A DNA stretch of 34,275 nucleotides from an uncultured Anaeroplasma sp. (GTDB lineage Bacteria; Bacillota_I; Bacilli_A; Acholeplasmatales; Anaeroplasmataceae), in the NCBI GenBank assembly GCA_945919465.1, contig CAMEJG010000023.1:1-34275 (forward strand). Direction: 5' to 3'. Within the stretch, counting starts at the first letter, position 1. Every line of letters starts with the position of its first letter. The notes under the pieces were generated by a model that saw only the letters and a list, made by a program, of their open reading frames with translations, did no database searches and was not told the origin of the DNA. The translations under genes were made by a program, and so were the position numbers. Shown here one piece after another: positions 11,880 to 34,261 of this stretch.

Positions 11880-11900
11880 TCTTACACCTCCATTTAGTTT

Positions 11901-12003
11901 AAATGAAAAATCTTCTTCTACCAAGGTAAAAGAAGATTAATACTTCAATGTTCCTCGGTAGGAGATTAAGGGCTTATGCCCGCCTACTGTCTTCGGCAAT
12001 ACT
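11901..12003 (-). ncRNA. L10 leader with transcription attenuator
   Basis: Between rplA and rplJ the minus strand carries the hallmark L10-leader segments: CCGAAGACAGTAGGCG (about 11980-11995), the GGGC-ATAA-GCCC hairpin, and CTCCTACCGAGGAA (about 11951-11965), which pairs back through GTAGG/CCTAC. These form the kink-turn that binds L10(L12)4. It is followed by a near-perfect 14-bp hairpin (11909-11922 with 11925-11938, one mismatch) and a T-run at 11901-11908, the expected attenuator. Excess L10 should favour termination before rplJ. Confidence 0.9.
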
Positions 12004-12006
12004 TTT

Positions 12007-12702
12007 TTACTTTTTGCTAATAGAATCAGCGTCAACCTTAACGCCAGGTCCCATTGTAGCTGCTACGCTAACATTCTTAACATAGCCACCCTTAATAGTT
12101 GAAGGGCGTACCTTTAATAGAGCATCATAAACTACTCTTAGGTTTTCTAATAACTTTTCAGGTCCAAATGATACCTTACCGATAGTCATTTGAATGTTAC
12201 CTACCTTATCTGGACGGTATTCAACCTTACCAGCTTTAATTTCTTTTACTGCTTTTGCAACGTCCATTGTTACAGTACCAGTCTTAGGGTTTGGCATTAA
12301 TCCCTTAGGGCCTAAAACACGTCCTAAACGTCCTAATTGACCCATCATATCTGGTGTAGCAACGATAACGTCAAATTCGAACCAGCCTTGGCTAATCTTG
12401 TTGATCATTTCTGCTTCGCCTACATAATCAGCACCAGCCTCTAAAGCTTCTTGTTGCTTTGCACCACGGCAAAGTACTAAAACCTTACGAGTCTTACCAG
12501 TACCATTAGGTAATACGATTGCACCACGAATATTTTGTTCAGCTTTACGTGGGTCAATATTTAAGCGGAATGCAACATCAACAGATGCATCAAACTTAGC
12601 TGTAGAAGTCTTACATGCTAATCCTAAAGCTTCTAATGCTGGATAAGCTTTTGTATTATCTACAAGCTTTGCTGCTTCAATGTACTTCTTTCCTCTCTTC
12701 AT
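12007..12702 (-). CDS. rplA: Ribosomal protein L1
   Basis: This 231-residue large-subunit protein binds 23S rRNA helices 76-78 to form the mobile L1 stalk, and in bacteria represses its own operon by binding mRNA. It is full length and starts [12 protein letters not shown]. The conserved signature [14 protein letters not shown] lies near residue 130, with [12 protein letters not shown] after it. AGGAGG precedes the start by 7 bases. The preceding 72-base gap holds a structure that resembles its rRNA target. Confidence 0.98.
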
Positions 12703-19804: not shown

Positions 19805-19838
19805 GCAAAAAAGAAAGGACATGGATAATACCATGTCC
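19805..19838 (-). terminator. Terminator of the seven-gene surface operon
   Basis: GGACATGG (19817-19824) and CCATGTCC (19831-19838) form a perfect 8-bp stem with a 6-base loop. On the minus strand it is followed by TTTCTTTTTT, about 85 bases past the last stop. Confidence 0.85.
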
Positions 19839-19923: not shown

Positions 19924-22584
19924 TTATTCAGCACTAGCTGGAGTTAATTCATAAGTGATTGATAATTCAGTTAATCTAACTTGAGCAGTATTTGATAATT
20001 CTAAAGATGTATCATTGATTTCATATACACCATTAGTACCAGTTACAGTAGTAGAACCAGCCTTAACAACTAATTTTTCTAATGAATATTTTCCAGTACC
20101 TGCAGATGATTTACAATAGATACTCTTTATAGTACCTGAAACATCACTCTTAAATGAAATTGTTATAGTATCACCACTATAAAATTTAAATAAATCTGTT
20201 GAAAAATTTGAAATATTATTATTAGTAGCATTAACATAAACCAAATCAAAAACGTTACTATCTAAACCAAATAAACTATAATTTGATGCATTATTACCAC
20301 TAGCTAAATTCTGTGTATCTGATGTAGGAAATACTAAACTTGTAGTCACAATACTAGAATATTTAGCAGTTACAGTAATTGTAGTTTCTTCTGAAACATA
20401 AGCTGTACCAGAAGCAACAACAATCTTAAATGTTTGAGTTAATGCAGTTTCGACTTGAGGAGCAGTAACAGTGATCTTGCCATCAGCATAAGTGATGATG
20501 GCAGTTTCAGCTGTATCAACTGTAACAGTTAAAGTTAAATCATAAGGATTTTCTAATGTAACTTCAGTATTAGCAGTAAACTCATTTTCAAATTGAGCCT
20601 TAATTGCATTAAGAGTCTCATTTACTTTTTCTTCTGGAGTTAATTCCTTTTGTACTGGTTGTTCAAATACATAGAATTGTGAATTAGTATTATAAAGTGC
20701 TGAAGCACCTACAACTGTATAAGTTTTTCCAACTTCAAGAGCTAATGTTATACCCTGTGAATATAAAGCTATTGAAGTTTCACCAACTAATATAGTCTTA
20801 GCCGCAGTGGCAACACCTGTGAATTTAACAACTTGATTTTGTGTTTCTTTAGTAACTGTTGCATAATTTGTAATTGTAGAAGTAATATCCTTCATTTCAG
20901 GTTTTGTAATTGCATCAGCACCTGTTACTTCTTCTACTTCATATTTTGTAATTTCATATAATGAATTATAAATAGATAATACACCATTAATAGTATATGT
21001 CTTTCCTACTTCGAATGAAGATGCATCACCATATGCTAAGTATCCGTTACCTTCAGCATCAACTAAATAAGTATAGTAAACAGTGTCTGATTTCTTACCA
21101 ATATATACTACAACACCCTTAACAAATACTGAAGCTCCATTTTCAGAAGCTACATATTGTGCGAATGTCATAGGATCAAATGAATTCTTTACTTGAACCT
21201 CATCAAATGTAATAGTAACAGGATCAACACCTTCTTTTGTAGCTGTAGCTACTAAAGTAAACTTTTGTAAAGAATCAGTTGGAGTGATGGTTAATGCACC
21301 TTCAGAAATTGTAGCACCAGTTGAGCCTTCAGCAAGTGCGTAAGTAATTGCGAAATCCTCATATCCTTCTAGTGTAGCAGGAAGAGTTACTGTTGTTTCT
21401 TCAGTATACTTTTCATTTAAAGCTACTTTTGATTTTAAAGCAGAACCAATATATTGTACTTTTTCAGAATCAGTAAATGGTACAATTGCTAAAACATTTC
21501 CTCTTAACTTACCTTTTGAGCTAGTAGAATTCATGTAGAATAATACTCTAATTACACTTCCCTCTTTACCCTTTAATAAAGACGCATAATTTTTAGTTTC
21601 ACTTGAAATTGAACCAGAGAAATATTCATTAAATGATACTTTTGAAGTTTCGTAATTTACATCCTCAATTGCATATGTACCATAATCATTTACATATACT
21701 AATACAGTCATTTCATATACATTACCTACTGCAGCAGTACCTAATGCATTAACTTCAACAATGGTCTTATCTTTTACTGCTGCAGAGAAATCTGCATCCT
21801 TTGATTCAGTTATTACTTGAAGCTTTGACGGATTAGCTAATTGCTTAGCAGAACTATGTTCACCAACTTCAGCACTGAAATAAACTTCATTACCAACCTC
21901 TACTGTTGCGGCAGTAGTTGAACCAAATACATAAATAGTACCAGTTGAATCTGTTAAATAGAAACCAGCTCTATATTCTGCATCAGTTGTACCAGATGCA
22001 TATAAGAAGCCTGTAACAACTCCATATGCTTCAACTGCTGTACCAGTAGCTAAAGTCTTTATTTCTGCAATAGTAGTAGAATGATCTTCTAATGCTTTAA
22101 CAGTAACCTTAAAATCTTTTGTCAATGTATAATCATCTAAAATAGCTGTTGCAGTAATTGTAACCTCTACATCTTGGCTACCAAATGTAGGCTGAGTTAC
22201 TGTTAAAACTCCTCCATTTACTGTAATTACATCAGCATTACTAGATGTATATGCTAATGTAACACCACCAATACCAGTAGTTGCTAGAGTAATACTTGCA
22301 GTATTAATCTCTGATTGAATAGACAATTGATCTAATGCTGCTTGCATTACCTCTTTTGCTTCTTCAGCAGGATCTACTGTTGAAGGAGTAGTTGTTGGAG
22401 CACTTGGATTACTAGTAGGTGTACTAGTAGGTGTACTAGTTGGAGTGCTTGGTGTAGTAGTTGCTGTTTGAGTTTGACTTGGAGTTGATGGAGTAGTTGT
22501 TGGTTCTTCTGTAGTTCCACAAGATGCTAAGCCAATAACAGCACCTAAAGAAATTAAACTAATTAATAAATTTTTCTTTTTCAT
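19924..22584 (-). CDS. Large surface lipoprotein with alternating Ig-like and OB-fold domains
   Basis: The protein has about 886 residues from the ATG at 22584, which has AAAGGA upstream; an in-frame start 51 bases earlier has none. Signal peptide and lipobox (GLASC) are followed by a Thr/Ser/Pro linker. The rest alternates atypical bacterial Ig-like domains (about 75-165, 375-465, 655-740) with three OB-fold-like modules (about 170-260, 470-560, 565-640; each has V-x-G-V then a strand pair and V-G-x-x-Y). A C-terminal beta-rich domain (about 745-880) looks like a jelly roll. OB-folds of this secreted type occur beside nucleases, so nucleic-acid binding is a reasonable inference. No catalytic motif was seen. 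It follows the SNase lipoprotein by 53 bases. Confidence 0.75.
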   Translation of the reverse strand: MKKKNLLISLISLGAVIGLASCGTTEEPTTTPSTPSQTQTATTTPSTPTSTPTSTPTSNPSAPTTTPSTVDPAEEAKEVMQAALDQLSIQSEINTASITLATTGIGGVTLAYTSSNADVITVNGGVLTVTQPTFGSQDVEVTITATAILDDYTLTKDFKVTVKALEDHSTTIAEIKTLATGTAVEAYGVVTGFLYASGTTDAEYRAGFYLTDSTGTIYVFGSTTAATVEVGNEVYFSAEVGEHSSAKQLANPSKLQVITESKDADFSAAVKDKTIVEVNALGTAAVGNVYEMTVLVYVNDYGTYAIEDVNYETSKVSFNEYFSGSISSETKNYASLLKGKEGSVIRVLFYMNSTSSKGKLRGNVLAIVPFTDSEKVQYIGSALKSKVALNEKYTEETTVTLPATLEGYEDFAITYALAEGSTGATISEGALTITPTDSLQKFTLVATATKEGVDPVTITFDEVQVKNSFDPMTFAQYVASENGASVFVKGVVVYIGKKSDTVYYTYLVDAEGNGYLAYGDASSFEVGKTYTINGVLSIYNSLYEITKYEVEEVTGADAITKPEMKDITSTITNYATVTKETQNQVVKFTGVATAAKTILVGETSIALYSQGITLALEVGKTYTVVGASALYNTNSQFYVFEQPVQKELTPEEKVNETLNAIKAQFENEFTANTEVTLENPYDLTLTVTVDTAETAIITYADGKITVTAPQVETALTQTFKIVVASGTAYVSEETTITVTAKYSSIVTTSLVFPTSDTQNLASGNNASNYSLFGLDSNVFDLVYVNATNNNISNFSTDLFKFYSGDTITISFKSDVSGTIKSIYCKSSAGTGKYSLEKLVVKAGSTTVTGTNGVYEINDTSLELSNTAQVRLTELSITYELTPASAE
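22411..22446. repeat. 12-bp tandem repeat inside the lipoprotein linker
   Basis: ACTAGTAGGTGT occurs twice exactly (22411-22422, 22423-22434) and once with two changes (22435-22446). It encodes a repeated Thr-Pro-Thr-Ser unit in frame, so copy number could change linker length without a frameshift. Confidence 0.85.
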
Positions 22585-22637
22585 ATTTTTTTCCTTTCTT
22601 TTTTTATGAATAAAGCATATTATGCTTGATTCCAATA

Positions 22638-24392
22638 TTAAATTGCTTTAATTTCGTCAACAATTGTACCATTTAGGTTTCTATTGCCAACTAAAATTTG
22701 ATAGCTTGGATATGCAAATGGAACTGTATAATCTTCATTTGCAAAAATACTTAGGATACCAGTAACCTTATATTTTTTTCCAGTTGTAAAAGAACTCTTG
22801 TCATATGAAGGAGCTAAAGCACCATTAACACGTACCTGAAGACAATCAGGACTATAACTCATTGTTACTTCTTCTAAATTAGCTTTCACATCACTTGATA
22901 AGTTTGCATATTCTGTACTTGAATAAAACTCAAGTTCTTTTGTGGTATTATTAACATAAGCTAATTTGAAATCCTTCATAGCATTTGAATCAGTTAATGA
23001 ATAATTGTTATTTTTGTCATATGAGCCAATTGATCCTAAATTTAAGGTGTAGGTTACTAATTTACCTAAATGACTCTTAATTTCTGTAAATGACATACCA
23101 TCAATATTAATTGCTTCAGGCATAGGTACAACTTCATTTGGATCAGTTACAAGTGAGAATGTAGATGTTTTAAATACAACATCTGACATTTGATATTGGC
23201 CACCATATTCACATAAACGACCACGAATTCTAATTGTATCACCAACATTGTAAACATCAGAAATTGAATTACCATTAATACCCATATAAATATATAATGG
23301 AGTACCTTGTTTATCCTCAATATAGAAATTGCTTCCTATATATCTAGTAATAACTCCTGTTAATTCTACATAAGTACCACGAGTCATTAAGGTATCAATT
23401 TGTTTAATTGCTTCAGTAATAGATAACTTAGTAGGATTCTTTGAATAATCATAATTTGGATCTGTTTCACCTTGAACACGTAAATCAGTTCCAGTTTTTG
23501 CCATACGATTTCCAGCTTCAAAGAATAATTCACTTAATAATAACGAACCATATCTTTTTGTTGTTTCACCTGATATTGAATCGGTTACAGTATCATATCT
23601 ACCATATAATAATGGTTCAGTAGATTTTTTAGCATAATATCCAAATCTTGAAGTTTTAAAGAAGACACTTTCAGTATAGCATTCTTCTATCATATCTAAT
23701 TGATATGAACGATAATTACTTAAATTTTCAGGATCTTGTCCTTGTGGACAATACCAAACAAGAGCTAACCAACGAGTACCATTTGAATCTAGTCTTGTTG
23801 AATAATTTCTTTCAGCATCATTATCGGTTCTAATATCTAAGGCATCAACAATAATACCTTCTGCATTCTTTAATAAGCTCTTACAATAATTAGATGCAGC
23901 CTTACCCCATGGATCAATTGATGAAGTAGATTCTGGTGTATCAATACCAGTAAAACGAATAGTAACATATTCATATGATTTACCCGCTACTGTATAAGTA
24001 TCTCTTTCACCATTATTTAAATAAAACACTGCTGTATCGCCATCTGTAACGGATTTTAATTCCATTTTAGCAATACCATCTGCAATAAAATTACCACTTA
24101 ATTTACCCTTACTATCCTTACTGATTGTAGGATTTAGAACTCCAAGATTTAACTTATTTGAAAAATAATGATCATATGGGGCTTCCTTATCAGCAGGAAC
24201 ATCATAGTATGCCGCACCTGGATTAACTACAGGAGCAGTTGTTGTAGGAAGCTTTGTTGTACTAGTAGCAGATGTTGGAATACTAGTTCCACTAGTTGAT
24301 AAATCTACTGAAGGAGTTTCATTATTACATGAGGCCAAAGTAAAACCACATAATATTGCTAAAGATATAATTCCTAATTTTAATTTTTTCAT
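22638..24392 (-). CDS. Surface lipoprotein with thermonuclease (SNase-like) domain and OB-fold
   Basis: This 584-residue protein has a signal peptide with lipobox (LASC), then a Ser/Thr linker (about 25-55). The staphylococcal-nuclease-like domain (about 110-290) carries VTDGDTAVF, the catalytic stretch IRFTGIDTPES with Arg, Asp and Glu in the nuclease order, WGKAASNYCK, and a second Arg in SNGTRWLALVW that matches the second catalytic arginine with one extra residue. An OB-fold-like module (about 340-420) has the YIEDKQGTPLYIY and VGDTIRIRGR strands, and a further beta-rich region follows. It is probably a membrane-anchored, calcium-dependent nuclease that cuts extracellular DNA or RNA. It sits between the solute-binding lipoprotein and the large OB-fold lipoprotein. 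Confidence 0.86.
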   Translation of the reverse strand: MKKLKLGIISLAILCGFTLASCNNETPSVDLSTSGTSIPTSATSTTKLPTTTAPVVNPGAAYYDVPADKEAPYDHYFSNKLNLGVLNPTISKDSKGKLSGNFIADGIAKMELKSVTDGDTAVFYLNNGERDTYTVAGKSYEYVTIRFTGIDTPESTSSIDPWGKAASNYCKSLLKNAEGIIVDALDIRTDNDAERNYSTRLDSNGTRWLALVWYCPQGQDPENLSNYRSYQLDMIEECYTESVFFKTSRFGYYAKKSTEPLLYGRYDTVTDSISGETTKRYGSLLLSELFFEAGNRMAKTGTDLRVQGETDPNYDYSKNPTKLSITEAIKQIDTLMTRGTYVELTGVITRYIGSNFYIEDKQGTPLYIYMGINGNSISDVYNVGDTIRIRGRLCEYGGQYQMSDVVFKTSTFSLVTDPNEVVPMPEAINIDGMSFTEIKSHLGKLVTYTLNLGSIGSYDKNNNYSLTDSNAMKDFKLAYVNNTTKELEFYSSTEYANLSSDVKANLEEVTMSYSPDCLQVRVNGALAPSYDKSSFTTGKKYKVTGILSIFANEDYTVPFAYPSYQILVGNRNLNGTIVDEIKAI

Positions 24393-24404
24393 ATAATCAC
24401 AATC

Positions 24405-26009
24405 CTAGTCCATATTCTTTTCTAGCTTAATTCTTGATTTAGCTAGTTCATTATAGAATGCAGTCATTGCTTGATCAAATGTCTTATTATATAAATACAT
24501 ATCGTTTACACAAGTTTCTAGATTATCACGAACAACAGATGAACCATTAAATGCTGGATCTGTATAATAATAATCAATTTCTGCAATTGCGGAATTAATA
24601 CCCTTAGAAACTGCTGAATTTTGTAAATAGAACATCTTGTCATCAGCATTTGTTAATTTTGATAAATCCCAGCTTGCACAATCTAATAATCTCTTGAAAT
24701 CAGCTGATTCTCTTGCTGAATTACGAACAGGTAAATAACCAGTTGAAGTTGAAAAGAATACTTGATTTTCAGCATTTGATAAATATTTAGTTAATAACCA
24801 AGCTGCCATCATTTGATAATTATCTGATGCCTTACTTAATATCGCAAGATTAGTACCTTGTTGAATAACTGCTTGAGTATCTGTAGCACCATAACCCTTT
24901 TGAGGTACTGTAGTAGTTTTTAATTCATAATTCTTAGAATCATTATTCTTAACACCTGCAGTAGAACCAATTGAAATAAAGGCTTTTCTTACTGCCATAT
25001 ATGAAGAACCATATGAACCTGTACCACCTGCTTGAGGGAATTGGAATAAATTATTCTTAGCTTGATTTAAGAAATAAGTTTGAGCCTCATAATTTGATTT
25101 ATTATATGCAGTAACTACACCAACACCATTAGAATTAATCATAGTATATTTACCAGTACCACCCCATTGACGAGATGTTGTAATAAAGAAATTTGATTGG
25201 CTATCTACATATACTGGATATTTCATATCAGAATCTACATTATATGTACCGCCATTATGAGTATAAGAAATAGTAGATTTATTGCTAACAATATATTGAC
25301 TTACCTCAAATAACTGTTCCCAAGTAGGATTATCCCATGTACCTTTTTCTGATAACCAGCCCTTTGACTCTAAAATTGGATCAACTACATTTGAATTATA
25401 ATACATAATTTCAGTTGATTTATTAAAAGGGATACCAGCAACAGAAGTTTTTCCTTCAATAAGCATTTGAGTTTCTTCCCAATATGATTTAACAAAATCA
25501 TTTGAAGTTGTAGTAACGCCTTCTAATGCTATATCAGGGTTAGTATTATATACATATGAATCTAATGGTAATAATAAATTTTGTTTAATATAATCAGCAA
25601 AATGGTCTGGATAACCTAATACAAGTGTAGGAATAGAACCACTATCTGCACCTAGGTTAACAGCACTACGAAGCCCATCATAGCCTCCGCCCTTATTAAC
25701 GATATTGACATCAATATTGAAGCCCTTATCAGTCATTTCAGATTCAAAATTTTCAACAAGCTCAATTAGTGGGGCAGATACTGCATCACCAAATGAATGC
25801 CAAAAATCAAATTTAACTGATTTACCATTTTTTAATTCATTATAAACACTTGTTAAGGTTTCATCCTCTACAGGAGTAATTGTAGTTTGACTGTTTTGAT
25901 TTGATGTAGCTGAAGAGTCTGAACTACCATTTGAAACCTGTCCACATGATGCAAGTGTAACACCTAAAGCCATTGTCATGGCTGTTGTGAAGAATATCTT
26001 CTTTTTCAT
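24405..26009 (-). CDS. ABC transporter solute-binding lipoprotein (family 1, UgpB/MalE-like)
   Basis: This 534-residue lipoprotein has signal peptide and lipobox (LASCG), a Ser/Asn/Gln linker, and a family 1 binding-protein fold (KFDFWHSFGDAVSAPLIELVENF; the GIPFNKSTEIMYYNS segment near 200; an AAWLLTKYLSNAENQ segment near 430 typical of sugar and glycerol-phosphate binders). It is longer than a typical 420-residue maltose-type protein. By fold it would be called a sugar binder, but the nuclease neighbours suggest a nucleoside, nucleotide or sugar-phosphate product. Ligand identity is inference. It is 15 bases downstream of the second permease. Confidence 0.88.
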   Translation of the reverse strand: MKKKIFFTTAMTMALGVTLASCGQVSNGSSDSSATSNQNSQTTITPVEDETLTSVYNELKNGKSVKFDFWHSFGDAVSAPLIELVENFESEMTDKGFNIDVNIVNKGGGYDGLRSAVNLGADSGSIPTLVLGYPDHFADYIKQNLLLPLDSYVYNTNPDIALEGVTTTSNDFVKSYWEETQMLIEGKTSVAGIPFNKSTEIMYYNSNVVDPILESKGWLSEKGTWDNPTWEQLFEVSQYIVSNKSTISYTHNGGTYNVDSDMKYPVYVDSQSNFFITTSRQWGGTGKYTMINSNGVGVVTAYNKSNYEAQTYFLNQAKNNLFQFPQAGGTGSYGSSYMAVRKAFISIGSTAGVKNNDSKNYELKTTTVPQKGYGATDTQAVIQQGTNLAILSKASDNYQMMAAWLLTKYLSNAENQVFFSTSTGYLPVRNSARESADFKRLLDCASWDLSKLTNADDKMFYLQNSAVSKGINSAIAEIDYYYTDPAFNGSSVVRDNLETCVNDMYLYNKTFDQAMTAFYNELAKSRIKLEKNMD

Positions 26010-26024
26010 TTTATTTCTCCTTTT

Positions 26025-26912
26025 TTATCCTTTTATACCAGAACGAGATACACCGTTCATAATATACTTCCTAAATACGATAAACGCAATTAATAATGGT
26101 AATGATACAAGTAGCATACCAGCCATTACGTAGTTTGTATTTACTAAACCTGAATCATTTCTAAACATTTCCATTATACCATTTGTAACAAGATTCATTT
26201 CCTTTCTACTTGTTACTGTACGAGGCCAAATATAAGCATTCCAGCTACCAATCATTGAAAGAATGGTAATTGTAATAATATTTGGTCTAGCAATAGGGAT
26301 CATAACCTTCCATAAATAACCAAAGTCAGTTACACCATCTACTTTAGCAGCATAATATAATTCATTAGGAATTTGTCTGAAATTTTGTCTTAAGAAGAAG
26401 GTATAAAATACACTAGTAATAAATGGTACTATTAACGCTGTATAGGTATCTAGCCAACCAAAATTCGCAACAGTAGTAAAGTTTGTAATAATCATCATTT
26501 CACCAGGAATCATCATTGTAGCTAGTAATATTGAGAATATCAATTCTTTACCTCTAAATTGTAATCTAGCAAAGGCAAATGCTGCAAGAACTGTAATAAT
26601 TACAGTTAATATTGTTGAAACCGTACCTACTAATAAGGTATTTCCCATATAACGCCAAATCATCGAATATTTTTCATCTGTAAAAAATATACTTAAATTA
26701 AATGTCCATTCCTTTGGAAATAATCCTTGTGCTACTGTAGTATCTTGAATTTCAGCAGTTGATTTAAATGCTGAGAAAACCATCCACATAAATGGAATTA
26801 ATGTAAATAATGCAAAGAAAGTTAATACTAAATATAGAATAATATCTTTAATTAATTTTGCTGCTTTATATCTTCTTTCTTCACTTACACTATTAAAATA
26901 TCTTTCTTCCAT
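26025..26912 (-). CDS. ABC transporter permease, CUT1 type (MalG/UgpE-like)
   Basis: This permease of about 295 residues has six membrane segments. The EAA-type loop that contacts the ATPase, YYAAKVDGVTDFGYLWKVMIP, lies near residue 200. A GTG 24 bases upstream is in frame, but AGGAGG sits eight bases before the ATG at 26912 (MEERYFN), right after the stop of the first permease, so I choose that. It pairs with the upstream permease to form the membrane channel. Confidence 0.93.
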   Translation of the reverse strand: MEERYFNSVSEERRYKAAKLIKDIILYLVLTFFALFTLIPFMWMVFSAFKSTAEIQDTTVAQGLFPKEWTFNLSIFFTDEKYSMIWRYMGNTLLVGTVSTILTVIITVLAAFAFARLQFRGKELIFSILLATMMIPGEMMIITNFTTVANFGWLDTYTALIVPFITSVFYTFFLRQNFRQIPNELYYAAKVDGVTDFGYLWKVMIPIARPNIITITILSMIGSWNAYIWPRTVTSRKEMNLVTNGIMEMFRNDSGLVNTNYVMAGMLLVSLPLLIAFIVFRKYIMNGVSRSGIKG

Positions 26913-26922
26913 TGGGCACCTC

Positions 26923-27909
26923 CTAGTAATGAACACGTTTCTTATTATATAGCATTTGGAATCCAGTCACTATCATAATAAGTATGAATAATACTACTGC
27001 AGATGCAGAAGATACAGGAAGTAATTGCCATTGAGAAGCACCAGTAACCTGATTGAAGCTATTATAAATATATCCGACAGCAGTCATGAATTGTGAATCA
27101 CTACCACTACCCATTGTATCACCATAAATAGCTACAATAGATGAATATGCTTTAAAGGCACCAATTAATGACGTAATTGTTATATATAAAACCATTGGTG
27201 ATAATAATGGTAGAGTAATTTTTCTAAATACTCTCCATTTAGAAGCACCATCTAGCTGAGCAGCTTGATAATATTGCTTATCAATACCTTGAATACCACC
27301 AACAAATACCAAAATCTTAAATGCTAGTCCATTCCAAATTGTATAAGTAATAATAACAATCGCACCAGCCCACATTGCAACTGTTTTATCAGTTAAACCT
27401 TCAATAGGTATATCTCCTATCCAGTTAATTGCTGCATTAAACATTCCATTTATTAAACCATTCCAAGAGAAAATTGAAGCAAATACCATACCAAATGCAA
27501 TACCATTAGTAACATAAGGTAGGAAGAATATTGTTTGGAAAATACCTCTTAAAGGTTTAATTGAACATAGCGCAACAGATATTAATAATGCGATAATAAT
27601 TGAAAGTGGAACTGAGATTACTGCAAGTAATACAGTAAAGGCTACAGCACTCCAAAATGATTTATCCTGAAGTACAGGAATTTCCTTACCCCATTCCCAA
27701 GCCTCCATAGAAGGATTATAGGCTGGGTCAAAATAAGCACCAAAACCCCAACCAACAAAATCATTGATTCCTGATGGAGCATCTGGATATACTTTGAATG
27801 AAGTAATTATTGTATTAATAATTGGATAAAATGTAAATAACGCCATTAGAAGAAGCATAGGTGCTAAGCATATGGCTGCTTTCCATCCATCCTTTTTCCA
27901 TTCAAGCAT
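26923..27909 (-). CDS. ABC transporter permease, CUT1 type (MalF/UgpA-like)
   Basis: This 328-residue permease has six membrane helices and the EAA loop YYQAAQLDGASKWRVFRKITLP near residue 215. An extracytoplasmic loop (residues 35-85) is longer than in UgpA. Its start overlaps the last base of the ATPase stop, so the two are translationally coupled. It forms the channel with the following permease. Confidence 0.93.
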   Translation of the reverse strand: MLEWKKDGWKAAICLAPMLLLMALFTFYPIINTIITSFKVYPDAPSGINDFVGWGFGAYFDPAYNPSMEAWEWGKEIPVLQDKSFWSAVAFTVLLAVISVPLSIIIALLISVALCSIKPLRGIFQTIFFLPYVTNGIAFGMVFASIFSWNGLINGMFNAAINWIGDIPIEGLTDKTVAMWAGAIVIITYTIWNGLAFKILVFVGGIQGIDKQYYQAAQLDGASKWRVFRKITLPLLSPMVLYITITSLIGAFKAYSSIVAIYGDTMGSGSDSQFMTAVGYIYNSFNQVTGASQWQLLPVSSASAVVLFILIMIVTGFQMLYNKKRVHY

Positions 27910-29003
27910 TATTTAATTCTCCTTCCTTGATCATCAAAGATATAATATCTTGTTAATGAGAACTTATAGGAATTTCCTGGTTCTACTAAAATTCCAGAAG
28001 GAACAATACATTTAAATGTTTGATTTAAAATACCAGGTAATCTAAAGACAACAGTTTTATCACGGCCTATATATTCAACAAATTCTACATCCATTTGATA
28101 TTTTCCGTCTTCTTCTATTCTAAAAAATTCTGGACGGAATCCTAAATGAACTGATTCTGTATATTCAACTCCTAAAGAAGTTTCTAATGAATCCACAAAT
28201 TCTTGAGTACCAAAATTAACATGTCCATCATTATATTTAGCCTCAACAATGTTAATTGGAGGTGTACCTAAGAATTTAGCAACAAATTCGTTAATTGGTT
28301 CATTATAAACATCCTGAGGAACTCCAATTTGTTGAACAACACCAAAGTTCATAACAACAATCTCATCAGAAATACTCATTGCTTCTTCTTGATCATGAGT
28401 TACAAAAATAGTAGTAATTCCTGTTGTTCTTTGAATTCGCTTAATCTCTTCTCTTGTTTGTAAACGTAAACGAGCATCAAGATTTGATAATGGTTCATCT
28501 AGTAATAATACCTCAGGCATTTTAACTAAAGCACGTGCAATGGCAACTCTTTGTTGTTGACCACCTGATAGTTGACTAGGCTTACGATCCATATAATCCT
28601 CAATACCTACAAGCTTTGCCATTTCTAATGCTTTCTCATAAGCTAACTGTTTTGGTTCTTTACGACTTAATAATGGAAACATTATATTCTCAGCTACACT
28701 TAAATGTGGATATAATGCGTAATTTTGGAATACTAATCCAATACCTCTTTTTTCTGGAGGTAGGTGAGTAACATCTCTATCTCCAAACATAATTTTTCCA
28801 TCTGTAGGTAAATGTAGTCCTGCAATCATATATAATGTTGTAGATTTTCCACATCCTGAAGGTCCTAGTAAACCAATAAGCTTTCCATCAGGTACATCAA
28901 TATTAATATGATCTACCGCAACTACCTTTTCTTGAGGAACTCCTCTTTTTTTCTTTCCTTGTTTATCAAATTCTTTTGTTAAATCAATTAGTTTTACTTC
29001 CAT
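27909..29003 (-). CDS. ABC transporter ATPase (UgpC/MsmX-like)
   Basis: This 364-residue ATPase has Walker A GPSGCGKST near 50, Q-loop VFQNYALYPHL, signature LSGGQQQRVAIARAL near 145, Walker B VLLLDEPLSNLDARL, and switch His in FVTHDQ. A C-terminal TOBE-like regulatory region (about 245-360) has a LGFRPEFF motif as in MalK/UgpC types. These ATPases energise CUT1 importers and can be shared between systems. A ribosome binding site (GGAGG) precedes the start. It lies 15 bases after the metallo-beta-lactamase lipoprotein gene. Confidence 0.95.
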   Translation of the reverse strand: MEVKLIDLTKEFDKQGKKKRGVPQEKVVAVDHINIDVPDGKLIGLLGPSGCGKSTTLYMIAGLHLPTDGKIMFGDRDVTHLPPEKRGIGLVFQNYALYPHLSVAENIMFPLLSRKEPKQLAYEKALEMAKLVGIEDYMDRKPSQLSGGQQQRVAIARALVKMPEVLLLDEPLSNLDARLRLQTREEIKRIQRTTGITTIFVTHDQEEAMSISDEIVVMNFGVVQQIGVPQDVYNEPINEFVAKFLGTPPINIVEAKYNDGHVNFGTQEFVDSLETSLGVEYTESVHLGFRPEFFRIEEDGKYQMDVEFVEYIGRDKTVVFRLPGILNQTFKCIVPSGILVEPGNSYKFSLTRYYIFDDQGRRIK

Positions 29004-29018
29004 ATTTATCCTCCATTA

Positions 29019-30782
29019 CTAATATTTTAGCTCATAAAACTTTGTATCAACAAATTTTTTATTATCTTCACCAGTAACCTTAACACCATCAACTAAATAG
29101 CCCTTAGTAGGTCCAAATCCTGTTACAGTAATTTCATTTTTTCCATCATCTGATAAATGAATAGTACCCATAGTACCATTGTAATATAAATTCTTTGTTT
29201 GCTTAATTTTTGATGTCGCAAGAATTCTTGATACGAAGGTTCTTGTTGGGTGAGCCTGTGCACTATCAAAAATATTATCTGAATAAACTATTGCGGCAGA
29301 AACTACAGCTATTTCTGGATTTACATAATTTAAGAATGAAGCGGAATTAGAATTTTTACTTTGAGCTCCATGATGACTAGCTTTATAAACTGTCATATTT
29401 TGAATATCTTCTTTTTCTAAATAGCTTTCATAATTACCAGAAATATCACCAGTATATAGATAAGTGTGGTCCTTAAATGTGAGTTTAACAACAACTGAAT
29501 GCTCATTTTCATCATTACAATCACTATGAAGCTCAGTGCCACTTTCCTGATAAGCACCTGTATTTAATACCTCTAAAGATAAATCATCTGAAAACTTATA
29601 TAGTTTAGAAGCTCCATTTTTTAGATTCACACAATCATAAGCTGAATAATAATCACAATTTGAATAATAGTTACGATATCTTTCATAGCCATAATCTGTA
29701 TTTCCACCAGTATAGCCATAATCAATAATTAAATCTACATCAGTAATAGAATTTAATGCACCTGTCGTAAAACCTCCCAAATGGTCTTGATGACCATGAG
29801 TTGCAATTAATACTTCGAGTTTATTATCTAAGCATTTATCCTTTAATATATTATTGACATTAGCCCCATCATCTTGTTGTCCTGCATCAATAAGCATATC
29901 AAAATCACCAGAATGAATATAGATAGAATCTCCATATTGATATATCATTTCAAGAACGTAAGTATCTAACTTATCTCCAACATTTGTGTAATATTTAGTA
30001 CCTGAGGATAAATCAAATTGATGAATTTCAAATGTATCATAGCTTATTGTAATTTCTCTTATAGCCTCATTGTAATAAGACCCAAAAGCCAATGATGCAT
30101 CAATAGTAATTTTTGATAACCCATCTTTACTAAAATCTAAGGTAGCCTTTAATAAACAAGGATTATAATTATATTTTGTGCCAAAATCAATATTAATATT
30201 ATCGAATACATTTTCAAATCTTGTAACATCATTAGTTAATGTAATTTGAAATGATGTAGAAGTCTTTTTTTTATAATTTAAAGTTGAATCTAATAAATTA
30301 GATATGCCAACAGTTCTAAATATATCATTAGTTTCATAATAATTTTTTACACTTGAATCATTTGATAATTTATAATAAAAAGAATTATCAGAATATTGAA
30401 GGGTTCCTTCACTTGATAATGAAGAAAATTCTCCATAGTAATAATTATTATTTAAATCAACATTTGTAGTTCTTGAAGCTAAATAGATATTATTATCCTT
30501 TGAGACTTTTGTCTTTTCAATTATAGTAGCGTATTTAATATTCTTTAGCTTTATAAATTCATTTTCTAAAGAAATATTAATATCTGTAGATGTAGTAATA
30601 TTTTCTAAACTTGTTGAAGGAATATTTGTAGGGATACTAGTTGTTTCATTTATTGGTATACTTGTACTAATATCAGTTGAAATATTTGGACTAGAGCTAC
30701 TAGCTTTATTAAAATTGAGATTACAGCCTGTCAGTAAGAAAACTAAGCATACTAAAAGAGCAGTAAAAAAACTTTTTTTCAT
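29019..30782 (-). CDS. Surface lipoprotein with ComEC-like metallo-beta-lactamase domain
   Basis: This 587-residue protein leads the seven-gene operon. It has a signal peptide and lipobox (LLTGC), a Ser/Thr/Pro/Ile linker (about 25-70), an unrecognised beta-rich domain (about 70-250), and a metallo-beta-lactamase fold (about 265-550). The metal motif THGHQDHLGG gives H-x-H-x-D-H near residue 325, followed by EHSVVVKL, YTGDISG and ASHHGAQSKNS. This order matches the C-terminal domain of the DNA uptake protein ComEC, in which that domain is thought to degrade one DNA strand. Secreted stand-alone relatives are poorly characterised. Nuclease function here is an inference supported by the SNase neighbour. 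Confidence 0.82.
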   Translation of the reverse strand: MKKSFFTALLVCLVFLLTGCNLNFNKASSSSPNISTDISTSIPINETTSIPTNIPSTSLENITTSTDINISLENEFIKLKNIKYATIIEKTKVSKDNNIYLASRTTNVDLNNNYYYGEFSSLSSEGTLQYSDNSFYYKLSNDSSVKNYYETNDIFRTVGISNLLDSTLNYKKKTSTSFQITLTNDVTRFENVFDNINIDFGTKYNYNPCLLKATLDFSKDGLSKITIDASLAFGSYYNEAIREITISYDTFEIHQFDLSSGTKYYTNVGDKLDTYVLEMIYQYGDSIYIHSGDFDMLIDAGQQDDGANVNNILKDKCLDNKLEVLIATHGHQDHLGGFTTGALNSITDVDLIIDYGYTGGNTDYGYERYRNYYSNCDYYSAYDCVNLKNGASKLYKFSDDLSLEVLNTGAYQESGTELHSDCNDENEHSVVVKLTFKDHTYLYTGDISGNYESYLEKEDIQNMTVYKASHHGAQSKNSNSASFLNYVNPEIAVVSAAIVYSDNIFDSAQAHPTRTFVSRILATSKIKQTKNLYYNGTMGTIHLSDDGKNEITVTGFGPTKGYLVDGVKVTGEDNKKFVDTKFYELKY

Positions 30783-30818: not shown

Positions 30819-30847
30819 ATTTTATCAATATTTATTAGTAAAGTAAA
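30819..30847 (-). promoter_or_regulatory. Promoter of the seven-gene surface operon
   Basis: On the minus strand TTTACT (30847-30842) and TAAAAT (30824-30819) are separated by 17 bases, about 37 bases before the first start codon. Fair match only. Confidence 0.5.
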
Positions 30848-31418: not shown

Positions 31419-31852
31419 CTAATCCATATGCTGTTTTTCAGGCATTCCCTTTAAAATTCTATAGGTTCTAGATTTATCCTCTTTTCTTTCAGCAACTAAG
31501 AATTCGACCTTCTTATCCTCTTTTGTTTTGAAATAAGGAGGATTACTTATAATTACATCTACAGGATCATTTTTATAAGTAATAATATCTCCACAAATAA
31601 TTTCTGTATTCTCAATATAATTTAATTCCATATTTCTTTTGGCTAAGACAACACCTTCAGGGTTTATTTCAAGCCCAATTAATTTCTTTGGGTGAAATAA
31701 ATTAGCATCCTGATTTGTTCCCAATCTAATACAGTATCATTTCTATAAATGTTTAAGAATTCACCTAAAACGAAGGTATTAATTCTTAGCATTGTATCAT
31801 CCTGATATAATTCAATTTCTGGATGATTTGATAAATAATCCTTTGTAATCAT
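31419..31852 (-). pseudogene. Frameshifted and truncated TrmN6-like tRNA methyltransferase
   Basis: The frame opens at the ATG at 31852, with GAGGAT just upstream. It reads MITKDYLSNHPEIELYQDD, continues to RNDTVLDW, and then loses frame near 31724. After a one-base shift it continues GTNQDANLFHPKKLIGLEIN..., CGDI and VDVIISNPPYFKTK. Motif I should be L-D-(L/I)-G-T-N-x-G, so inserting one T restores it. These motifs match the YabB/TrmN6 family, which methylates an adenine of tRNA. After NPPYFK the similarity ends, and the frame stops at 31419, so about the last 100 residues are also missing. The gene is dead. Confidence 0.7.
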
Positions 31853-31922
31853 AATATCCTCTTTTAAAATAGTTTTCTTTAATATAATTTTAAAGCATAA
31901 TCTTTTTTTTAAAATGATATAG

Positions 31923-31960: not shown

Positions 31961-34261
31961 TTAATATGTTTTTCTTATGATATCCATTGGGCTCTTTCTC
32001 AAATAATTATATAGTGGAATAACACCCATAGATATAGTAAATAAGAATGTAAAAGCTAAAAGCAATATGGTTTGCCAATTCATAGCAAATAAAGCTATAT
32101 ATCCTATTCCTTCCTTCATTAAAAGATTATTTGTAACAATACAAACCGCGATAATTACAATAACTGCAATAGATAGGGTTATTAATGCAATGAATATAAT
32201 AGAAATCATATACATTAAGATTATTTCCTTCCTTCTACATCCAGAAGCATATAATATACCAATTTCCTTTTTATTATCATTAATTCTATGAATAACTAGA
32301 TTAATAATAGATGTAATTGTAATTAATGCAAAGATAACCGCAAGTCCAATGAAAAAATATAGCATATAGGTAATAAATGGCTCATAATCATAAGCTACGT
32401 CAAATCTTACTCCACTTAAAAGCATATTATCCTTTCTTAAGGAAACAACTGTATTGTATTTATTGCCTATATTTTGCCAATCTACCTTGCTTACAATTTT
32501 TTTACAAATATTAATATTTTCTAATCCGTGCATATTTCTATTCACATAAAAGTATTTATTGTTAGCACCAAATTGTACTTCTACACCAACAATTTTAACA
32601 TTTTTTATCTCAATTATTCTGTGGTTATCCTTTATAGTGAAGGATATGGTTTCTCCTAAATGCGGTATAGCATTAACAAGAGGATTAGAATTATATATAG
32701 CAGTTTGATATTCACGATATAAATCGAGCCAATCTATTTTTACATTGAAAAGCATTTCATAGAATTCTGGTCCAAGCACAATTTCATCATTCGCTAAGGT
32801 TACTTTTTTTGTTGTATCAGATTCTTCAAATATAGATGCAAAATAACCTTCATTTGTGAAGAACTTATAATTCGATGCAGATTCATTAAAATTAATACTA
32901 ATATAATTTAATTTTTTTGTTTCATCCTTCATGTCACAGGAAATAGTTGTTAAATCAGAATTAGAATAATATAAAGAATTTTTACCCAATTCTAATGAGT
33001 TAAATGTTGTTTTATTACCATATATAACTTTGTATTCATAATGAACTCTATCCAATAATGTCCTAGAGTCTCTAAGACCAATAGGAAATTCCTCAATAGT
33101 TTTTTGACTTAAATCGCTATTATAATAATTTAAATAATCTGTTTTTATAATACCTGCAATAGTATATTGAAAAATATCCTTATAATATACTTCTGTATTC
33201 TTTAAATCTAATAAATCAGAATAATTATTTATTTTATAATCATGGTCTTTACCCAATACAAAATATAAATAATAATCTGTTATATAACAAGCATTGTCCT
33301 TTAGTGGCTCCTTAAAATAGAAATCAAAGGAATGAAAAATATCTTCATTGCCTTCAATCACATAATAAATAAAACCATTAATATCATATCCATCACATTT
33401 CACTTTAGAATCAATAATAGAATTAATATCATTTAATTCATACCCATAATATTGAGTCGCAGGGAAATCCTGGGATCCCGAATTACTTACGACATATTCA
33501 AATTTATCATCTTTACTTAATTTATAATTTATATATTCAGAGCTATAGGTTAAGCATATTGCCATACAACCAATAGAAATGAAGGATAAAACAAGTAAAA
33601 TAGCGGAAATAACAGTTTTAAACTTATGACTAGATAAATTATTTAATCCATAATTTAATATAGTTTTAAAGCTCATTATATTCTTTTTTATTTCTTGATT
33701 CGAATTATCTGTTAAATCATGAATTTCTTCATCATTGTCCACTTTTCCATCTTTTATATGTACAATACGATCTGCAAAACTATTAGCCAATTCCTCATTA
33801 TGAGATACAACAATAACTAATTTTTCTTTAGAAATTACCTTTAATAGCTCAATAATATCTTTACTTGTATTAGAATCTAGATTCCCTGTGGGCTCATCGC
33901 AAAGTAATATTTTACTATTTTTAGCTAGTGCTCTTCCGATTGCAATTCTTTGTTTTTGCCCGCCGGATAGCTCATTTACCCTTCTATTTTCATAGCCTTC
34001 AAGACCAATTTTAGAAAGAATATCCTTAACAAGCTTATCTTTTTCTTCTTTTTCTTTTGAAGATATTACCAAAGCTAAGTTTTCGTAAACATTAAGCTTA
34101 GGTAATAGATTATATTCTTGGAATACAAAGCTTATAATATCTCTTCTATACTCCTCAAGCGATAAGGAAGAAAGAGAATTACCATCATAAAATACCTCGC
34201 CTTCGGTCATAGAATCTATACCACCGTAACAAAAAGTATAGTAAACTATAGAAATCACCAT
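31961..34261 (-). CDS. ABC transporter ATPase-FtsX/MacB-type permease fusion, N-terminus damaged or cut
   Basis: The 766-codon frame keeps most of an ATPase: Q-loop FVFQEYNLLPKLNV, signature LSGGQKQRIAIGRAL, Walker B ILLCDEPTGNLD, and switch VVSHN, all in residues 20-160. It then has a single helix (about 215-240), a large extracytoplasmic domain (about 240-620), and three C-terminal helices of the FtsX/MacB type. These fusions export or pull substrates such as lipoproteins, peptides or antibiotics. The N-terminal Walker A (G-x-x-G-S-G-K-S/T) should lie just before GGIDSMTEGEV but is absent. The visible start is MVISIVYYTFCYGG, with a TGA two codons upstream, so the gene looks rearranged at or near the window edge. 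Confidence 0.75.
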   Translation of the reverse strand: MVISIVYYTFCYGGIDSMTEGEVFYDGNSLSSLSLEEYRRDIISFVFQEYNLLPKLNVYENLALVISSKEKEEKDKLVKDILSKIGLEGYENRRVNELSGGQKQRIAIGRALAKNSKILLCDEPTGNLDSNTSKDIIELLKVISKEKLVIVVSHNEELANSFADRIVHIKDGKVDNDEEIHDLTDNSNQEIKKNIMSFKTILNYGLNNLSSHKFKTVISAILLVLSFISIGCMAICLTYSSEYINYKLSKDDKFEYVVSNSGSQDFPATQYYGYELNDINSIIDSKVKCDGYDINGFIYYVIEGNEDIFHSFDFYFKEPLKDNACYITDYYLYFVLGKDHDYKINNYSDLLDLKNTEVYYKDIFQYTIAGIIKTDYLNYYNSDLSQKTIEEFPIGLRDSRTLLDRVHYEYKVIYGNKTTFNSLELGKNSLYYSNSDLTTISCDMKDETKKLNYISINFNESASNYKFFTNEGYFASIFEESDTTKKVTLANDEIVLGPEFYEMLFNVKIDWLDLYREYQTAIYNSNPLVNAIPHLGETISFTIKDNHRIIEIKNVKIVGVEVQFGANNKYFYVNRNMHGLENINICKKIVSKVDWQNIGNKYNTVVSLRKDNMLLSGVRFDVAYDYEPFITYMLYFFIGLAVIFALITITSIINLVIHRINDNKKEIGILYASGCRRKEIILMYMISIIFIALITLSIAVIVIIAVCIVTNNLLMKEGIGYIALFAMNWQTILLLAFTFLFTISMGVIPLYNYLRKSPMDIIRKTY

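Follow-up and report, generated by a model that had tools for sequence, protein, structure and literature searches.

A lipoprotein with a ComEC-type metallo-beta-lactamase domain heads an importer operon with a likely role in nucleic-acid scavenging in an uncultured Anaeroplasma sp.

Characterised metallo-beta-lactamase (MBL) domains of ComEC carry the sequence HxDxDH in motif II and an Asn in motif III (PMC8579336, PMC12455585); in isolation they are Mn-dependent nucleases for which DNA cleavage has been shown (PMC8579336, PMC12455585), and the ComEC nuclease domain cuts both endo- and exonucleolytically (PMC12455585). In Pce the motif III residue is His (PMC8579336). ComEC-type MBLs without a channel also occur on extracellular proteins of the nuclease type: in haloarchaea a COG2333 (ComEC-type) MBL is combined with a thermonuclease (PMC3929857), and a combination with a lamin tail domain was seen in a haloarchaeal protein (L144) and likewise in a methanogen protein (L136). 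Loci in which nucleases and importers are encoded together are known as well. In M. agalactiae the genes for an SNase, a solute-binding protein and an ABC transporter are co-transcribed (PMC3585158). Izemoplasmatales possess DNA-degradation loci, and genes for extracellular nucleases have been noted in the Bacilli family CAG-313 (PMC8289736). DNA supports the growth of one Izemoplasma isolate (PMC8397711), and nucleic acids induce a locus that encodes NrnA and ABC transporters (PMC10470597).

The window analysed here, a stretch of 34,275 nucleotides in all, contains a gene for an MBL lipoprotein that heads a seven-gene operon on the minus strand, in which neighbouring genes are spaced by -14 to +15 bases at the six junctions (Table 1). 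A secreted nuclease adjoins an ABC importer and its binding protein, and the full set of SNase, solute-binding protein, two permeases and ATPase is present. This operon, which points to a likely role in nucleic-acid scavenging, was missing from the initial annotation. As in the mycoplasma operon of SNase, P80 and ABC genes (PMC3585158), an SNase lipoprotein, a binding lipoprotein, an ATPase and two permeases are encoded in one unit, and the N-terminal part of the binding protein matches the P68 surface lipoprotein family of mycoplasmas, although this match is partial; here, however, MBL and aBig-domain lipoproteins are added and the gene order is different. An ABC importer together with several extracellular nucleases is likewise found in the Izemoplasmatales loci, whereas the first gene of the present operon encodes a ComEC-type MBL, and the main text of PMC8289736 names no metallo-beta-lactamase in those loci. 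The haloarchaeal and methanogen proteins share the channel-less ComEC-type MBL, but carry a lamin tail or thermonuclease where the present protein has a LolA-like domain, and no importer operon has been shown for them. This kind of locus is already known from the mycoplasma SNase-ABC operons and the Izemoplasmatales loci, as are extracellular ComEC-type MBLs without a channel. In a limited literature search, confined to text as distinct from figures and supplements, neither the LolA-MBL combination nor the mixed metal site nor the leading position in an importer operon was found described; the combination and its role in the operon look like a new form of this known kind.

Table 1. Features of the MBL lipoprotein and its operon (window coordinates; residues are those of the MBL lipoprotein)
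Feature	Coordinates	Strand	Details
MBL lipoprotein gene	29019..30782	(-)	ATG start, 587 aa; open reading frame confirmed
MBL lipoprotein, layout			lipobox Cys20; Ser/Thr linker ~21-69; LolA/LprG-like ~70-255; ComEC-type MBL ~268-560
MBL lipoprotein, predicted catalytic residues			H329, H331, D333, H334, N426, D446, H470/H471; invariant in 5 orthologues
ComEC-type MBL domain (residues 268-560)	29103..29981	(-)	VIA alignment to 9ic4 covers 269-557
LolA/LprG-like N-terminal domain (residues 70-255), provisional	30018..30575	(-)	AlphaFold, Foldseek, restricted distribution
ABC importer ATPase, UgpC/MalK type	27909..29003	(-)	profile matches; 15-base gap to MBL gene
ABC importer permease, UgpA/MalF type	26923..27909	(-)	profile matches; 1-base overlap
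ABC importer permease, UgpE/MalG type	26025..26936	(-)	profile matches; 14-base overlap
Solute-binding lipoprotein	24405..26009	(-)	PF13416 E 3.9e-25; NF045826 E 2.1e-12
SNase lipoprotein	22638..24392	(-)	NF047694 E 1.2e-6; PF00565 21.4 bits vs cut-off 21
aBig-domain (aBig/OB) lipoprotein	19924..22635	(-)	PF20578 E 2.1e-13
Promoter-like site before MBL gene	30819..30847	(-)	TTTACT-17-TAAAAT + TG extension; weak, such sites at chance number in region
Terminator-like hairpin + T run, just past last operon gene	19817..19838	(-)	8-pair stem then TTTCTTTTTT

The initial annotation had proposed that a lipoprotein anchor carries a stand-alone ComEC-type MBL domain, and both profile and fold comparisons ranked ComEC first. 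The protein matched PF00753 in a profile search (E 2.3e-9), and the best specific family was ComEC/Rec2 (TIGR00361, E 1.2e-11, residues 313-497); the score of 43.6 bits lies far below the full-length cut-off of 190, as is expected for a single domain. Against solved structures, sequence profiles placed ComEC proteins at the top, followed by Pce/CbpE. When the whole AlphaFold model (mean pLDDT 83.5) was searched with Foldseek, the top fold match was the MBL domain of ComEC from Moorella glycerini (9ic4, E 2.9e-15), and VIA superposition on this structure gave a Z score of 26.2 over 253 residues with an rmsd of 2.9. The next structures by VIA were Pce (Z 24.3-24.4) and RNase J (Z 18.0). The nearest structures were thus those of ComEC rather than of lactonases or other hydrolases, although Pce, a phosphodiesterase, was a close second.

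The motifs follow the ComEC order, as had been proposed, and the HHG and GD motifs and the location outside the membrane are also shared with ComEC, but the active site is not exactly that of ComEC, since HxHxDH replaces HxDxDH. This form of motif II was found in all five orthologues (the present protein included), as were all of the predicted metal ligands. Across 123 homologues, position 331 is His in 87, as it is here, and Asp in 36, so that both residues occur at this motif II position among the stand-alone proteins themselves; position 426 is Asn in 119. In an alignment of 35 relatives, H329, D333, H334, N426, S429, D446, H470 and H471 never varied. The proposed HSVV motif did not survive this comparison, because position 428 reads H, Y, F, F and Y across the five orthologues; the conserved residues of that strand are those of NxxS, Ser429 and Asn426, the latter as in ComEC. 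Since HxHxDH occurs together with the motif III residue Asn426, the predicted metal site is mixed, with a ComEC-like motif III and a Pce-like motif II. The similarity to Pce/CbpE (1wra, 2bib) comprises the second-best fold match and the canonical motif II His; the present protein differs in having Asn instead of His in motif III, in lacking choline-binding repeats in the Pfam scan, and in its nucleic-acid gene context. The true ComEC of the source genome (contig C6, 703 aa) keeps HSDNDH in motif II and has its own complete MBL domain. On the same contig, an Endonuclease I protein (L071:13324-15000, minus strand) is encoded a few genes from this ComEC. A second stand-alone ComEC-type MBL lipoprotein of 428 aa, with the motif HKDKDH and no adjoining importer, is encoded on contig C14 (L070:9189-10475, plus strand).

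The proposed lipoprotein anchor was borne out by a signal peptide followed by the lipobox LLTGC, the Cys20 of which is invariant in the five orthologues. From the signal peptide and lipobox, Cys20 is predicted to be lipidated and the protein to lie outside the cell, on the outer face of the membrane. The absence of a channel was likewise upheld: the Pfam scan found only Lactamase_B and no competence transmembrane channel domain, and in the protein a soluble body follows the signal peptide. In contrast to ComEC/Rec2, it has neither channel nor OB fold, and it adds a lipid anchor and a LolA-like domain, lies among importer rather than com genes, and falls in a separate clade. A chance origin is excluded by four full-length orthologues within its own genus, which share 44-50% overall identity. 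Among the five orthologues identity was 57-64% in the MBL domain and 25-35% in the N-terminal domain; the linker was unconserved.

The N-terminal domain (approximately 185 residues) had been described as about 180 residues of no family. Consistent with this description, it had no sequence-family match and was confined, by sequence, to the five orthologues of one genus; the model, however, was confident (pLDDT mostly 80-96 per block) and pointed to a recognisable fold, probably of the LolA/LprG type. Foldseek matches to the whole model, given without aligned ranges, included LolA (8v1k, E 7.8e-6) and LprG (3mha), and these should fall on the N-terminal half because both are small single-domain proteins that lack an MBL fold. 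The assignment of a LolA/LprG-type lipoprotein fold is provisional, since the domain did not fold when predicted alone and without an alignment (pLDDT 34). Folds of this type bind lipid. A weak match to this domain in genome G010 was rejected as a different lipoprotein; the common ground was little beyond a Thr-rich linker, and a query with the domain only did not match G010.

The importer ATPase and permeases of the operon matched general UgpC/MalK-type families of sugar and glycerol-phosphate importers, so that the substrate is unproven by homology. The translated SNase lipoprotein showed the motif residues DGDT, R, DTPE and R; comparison with solved structures returned a spurious match only. 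For the aBig-domain lipoprotein, an in-frame ATG (MKKKNLLIS) is a more likely start than the listed TTG. Neither NrnA nor Endonuclease I is encoded in this operon, and NrnA is encoded elsewhere in the genome. Upstream of the MBL gene the window also contains an apparent broken methyltransferase remnant (31419-31880, minus strand), with an NPPY motif in a 101-aa frame and the upstream part out of frame, and a 766-aa fusion of an ABC ATPase with an FtsX-type permease (31961-34261, minus strand), a transporter of a class different from that of the operon importer. An L10 ribosomal leader RNA (RF00557, 77 bits) was found at 11896-12014 on the minus strand.

Gene order in the operon was identical in four other genomes (G017, G004, G026 and G014). 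Counts for the family were made on 39 loci with a stand-alone MBL, with the importer and SNase counted within eight same-strand genes. An ABC importer or its binding protein was near the MBL in 19 loci and an SNase in 17, NrnA lay no more than three genes downstream in 23, and Endonuclease I was present in 11 (neighbouring in ten, fused to the MBL in one); ten loci had no nucleic-acid partner, some because of contig ends. Elsewhere in the family, other genera have the MBL at the far end of a similar operon, frequently accompanied by Endonuclease I (PF04231) and with NrnA next. In many relatives (for example L046:11347-12291, plus strand) the gene for NrnA (oligoribonuclease/PAP phosphatase) adjoins that for the MBL, and it directly follows the latter even where no importer is nearby (L047, L048, L049, L056, L057, L063 and L068). 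Other families of the class repeat the cluster (L194-L196, L207 and L208) or have an MBL adjoining Endonuclease I (L185, L186, L188, L209 and L210). Two proteins fuse these domains: in L050:10005-12983 (minus strand) Endonuclease I precedes the MBL, and in L204:8168-11635 (minus strand) a lamin tail, Big_3 and MBL precede Endonuclease I. These fusions probably arose independently, since their domain orders are opposite. A candidate Endonuclease I (L037:10074-12053) was rejected because Pfam found only the repeat domain Flg_new, and the Endonuclease I counts rest on a refined profile without that domain. MBL relatives occur widely among Bacilli and Clostridia; frames broken by TAA or TAG in G268, G275, G381, G246, G440 and G180 are either pseudogenes or a sign of another genetic code.

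A maximum-likelihood tree built from 117 MBL domains showed the MBL lipoprotein type as a clade of five (support 100/99) inside a clade of 14 restricted to the family, and the operon-end type in a separate clade. ComEC domains fell outside the stand-alone clades, across a fully supported branch, although the order among the ComEC sequences is unsure because some have very long branches. The same type of operon can have an MBL of one clade at its head or an MBL of another, well-separated clade at its tail, which argues that the association between MBL and operon is functional.

The source genome and its relatives belong to Bacilli of the gut or rumen that lie close to the Mollicutes. A wall-less organism, first assumed from the names of relatives, was rejected for the source genome on the strength of four penicillin-binding transpeptidase matches. 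Such transpeptidases were found in 21 of the 55 family genomes (G000-G054), which suggests repeated loss of the cell wall within the family. Nucleotide auxotrophy as a driver was not supported for the source genome, which encodes PurH and PyrB and so is not an obvious auxotroph. In genus g5, ten of the 11 genomes lack both enzymes and mostly have an MBL, and no MBL match was found in the sole genome that retains the pair. This pattern is correlative and comes from related genomes; PurH, PyrB and MBL are all missing from G046, which is 72% complete.

Taken together, the MBL lipoprotein is probably a surface phosphodiesterase or nuclease that feeds a nucleic-acid-scavenging importer and serves nutrition, not transformation. 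Lipidated Cys20 would hold the protein on the outer face of the membrane, where the flexible linker and the modelled LolA/LprG-like domain may hold or position the enzyme. To judge from the fold and its ligands, the MBL domain would bind two metal ions through H329, H331, D333, H334, D446 and HHG 470-472, with N426 at the ComEC position, and would hydrolyse phosphodiester bonds of DNA or RNA fragments. The co-encoded SNase lipoprotein may make the first cuts; the binding lipoprotein would then capture the products for uptake by the ABC importer, as co-location and the mycoplasma precedent suggest, and cytoplasmic NrnA would finish the oligonucleotides. We tentatively extend this proposal, as conceivable rather than probable, to a recruitment of ComEC-type MBLs more than once, in separate clades, as surface nucleases dedicated to importers; in the present case the enzyme would sit on a LolA-like domain, with a Pce-like ligand in a ComEC-like site, and would make mono- or short oligonucleotides that go directly to the binding protein.

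A narrower version of the scavenging role, in which the enzyme is a phosphodiesterase or phosphatase that readies short products (oligonucleotides, cyclic nucleotides or mononucleotides) for the binding protein and does not act on polymeric DNA, has a real chance of being correct, somewhat short of even. It would account for HxHxDH in place of the HxDxDH of ComEC, for an endonuclease role already filled by SNase or Endonuclease I, and for the pairing of MBL with the nano-RNase NrnA, and "phosphohydrolases" are named among the genes of similar loci (PMC8289736); the nearest fold, however, is a ComEC nuclease domain with both endo- and exonucleolytic activity (PMC12455585). An unlikely alternative is a Pce-like esterase that strips lipids or teichoic acids of phosphocholine or glycerol phosphate, with the LolA-like domain presenting lipid and a Ugp-like importer taking in glycerophosphodiesters. 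The fold match to Pce, the canonical HxHxDH, the resemblance of the ATPase and permeases to UgpC, UgpA and UgpE, and lipid binding by LolA/LprG folds are all in keeping with such an enzyme, but the motif III Asn is that of ComEC, the loci carry SNase, Endonuclease I, NrnA and OB-fold lipoproteins, and fusions of MBL to Endonuclease I exist. Furthermore, the operon is kept in genomes in which no penicillin-binding transpeptidase match was found (G017, genus g3) and wall teichoic acid is improbable; its presence on both sides of the wall divide weakens a role connected with wall teichoic acid.

The initial annotation had suggested that DNA may be processed independently of competence, and this suggestion agreed with the separate true ComEC in the genome and with the tree. 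An accessory role in natural transformation, trimming surface DNA for ComEC, is very improbable even though the fold is the same as that of the ComEC MBL domain and a true ComEC is encoded in the source genome: that ComEC has a complete nuclease domain of its own, the loci contain an importer and NrnA, and the tree separates ComEC from the MBL lipoprotein. Competence was rejected as the main reading because a complete ComEC is encoded elsewhere and the neighbours are importer genes. Defence of the cell at its surface, with phage or foreign DNA being cleaved at the membrane by an enzyme akin to the AVAST and Hachiman MBL nucleases, is hardly credible. A related MBL within the family (L046) matches NF041809 Avs1a (E 2.3e-14), and HamM and Avs1a are stand-alone ComEC-like nucleases (PMC12799240), but the signal peptide and lipobox place the present protein outside the cell, and an importer operon adjoins it instead of trypsin-like protease or defence genes, none of which was found there.

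In the scavenging role proposed here, a fold that degrades one DNA strand in transformation seems to serve the use of DNA as food in gut bacteria, which bears on the old question of whether DNA uptake systems exist for genes or for nutrition. The widespread stand-alone proteins annotated as "MBL fold" or "ComEC-like" gain testable candidates for their function, and the nuclease-importer operon of mycoplasmas is extended to gut Bacilli, walled species included. If the proposal is true, the importer-dedicated ComEC-type MBL would be the DNA-eating counterpart of the competence nuclease.
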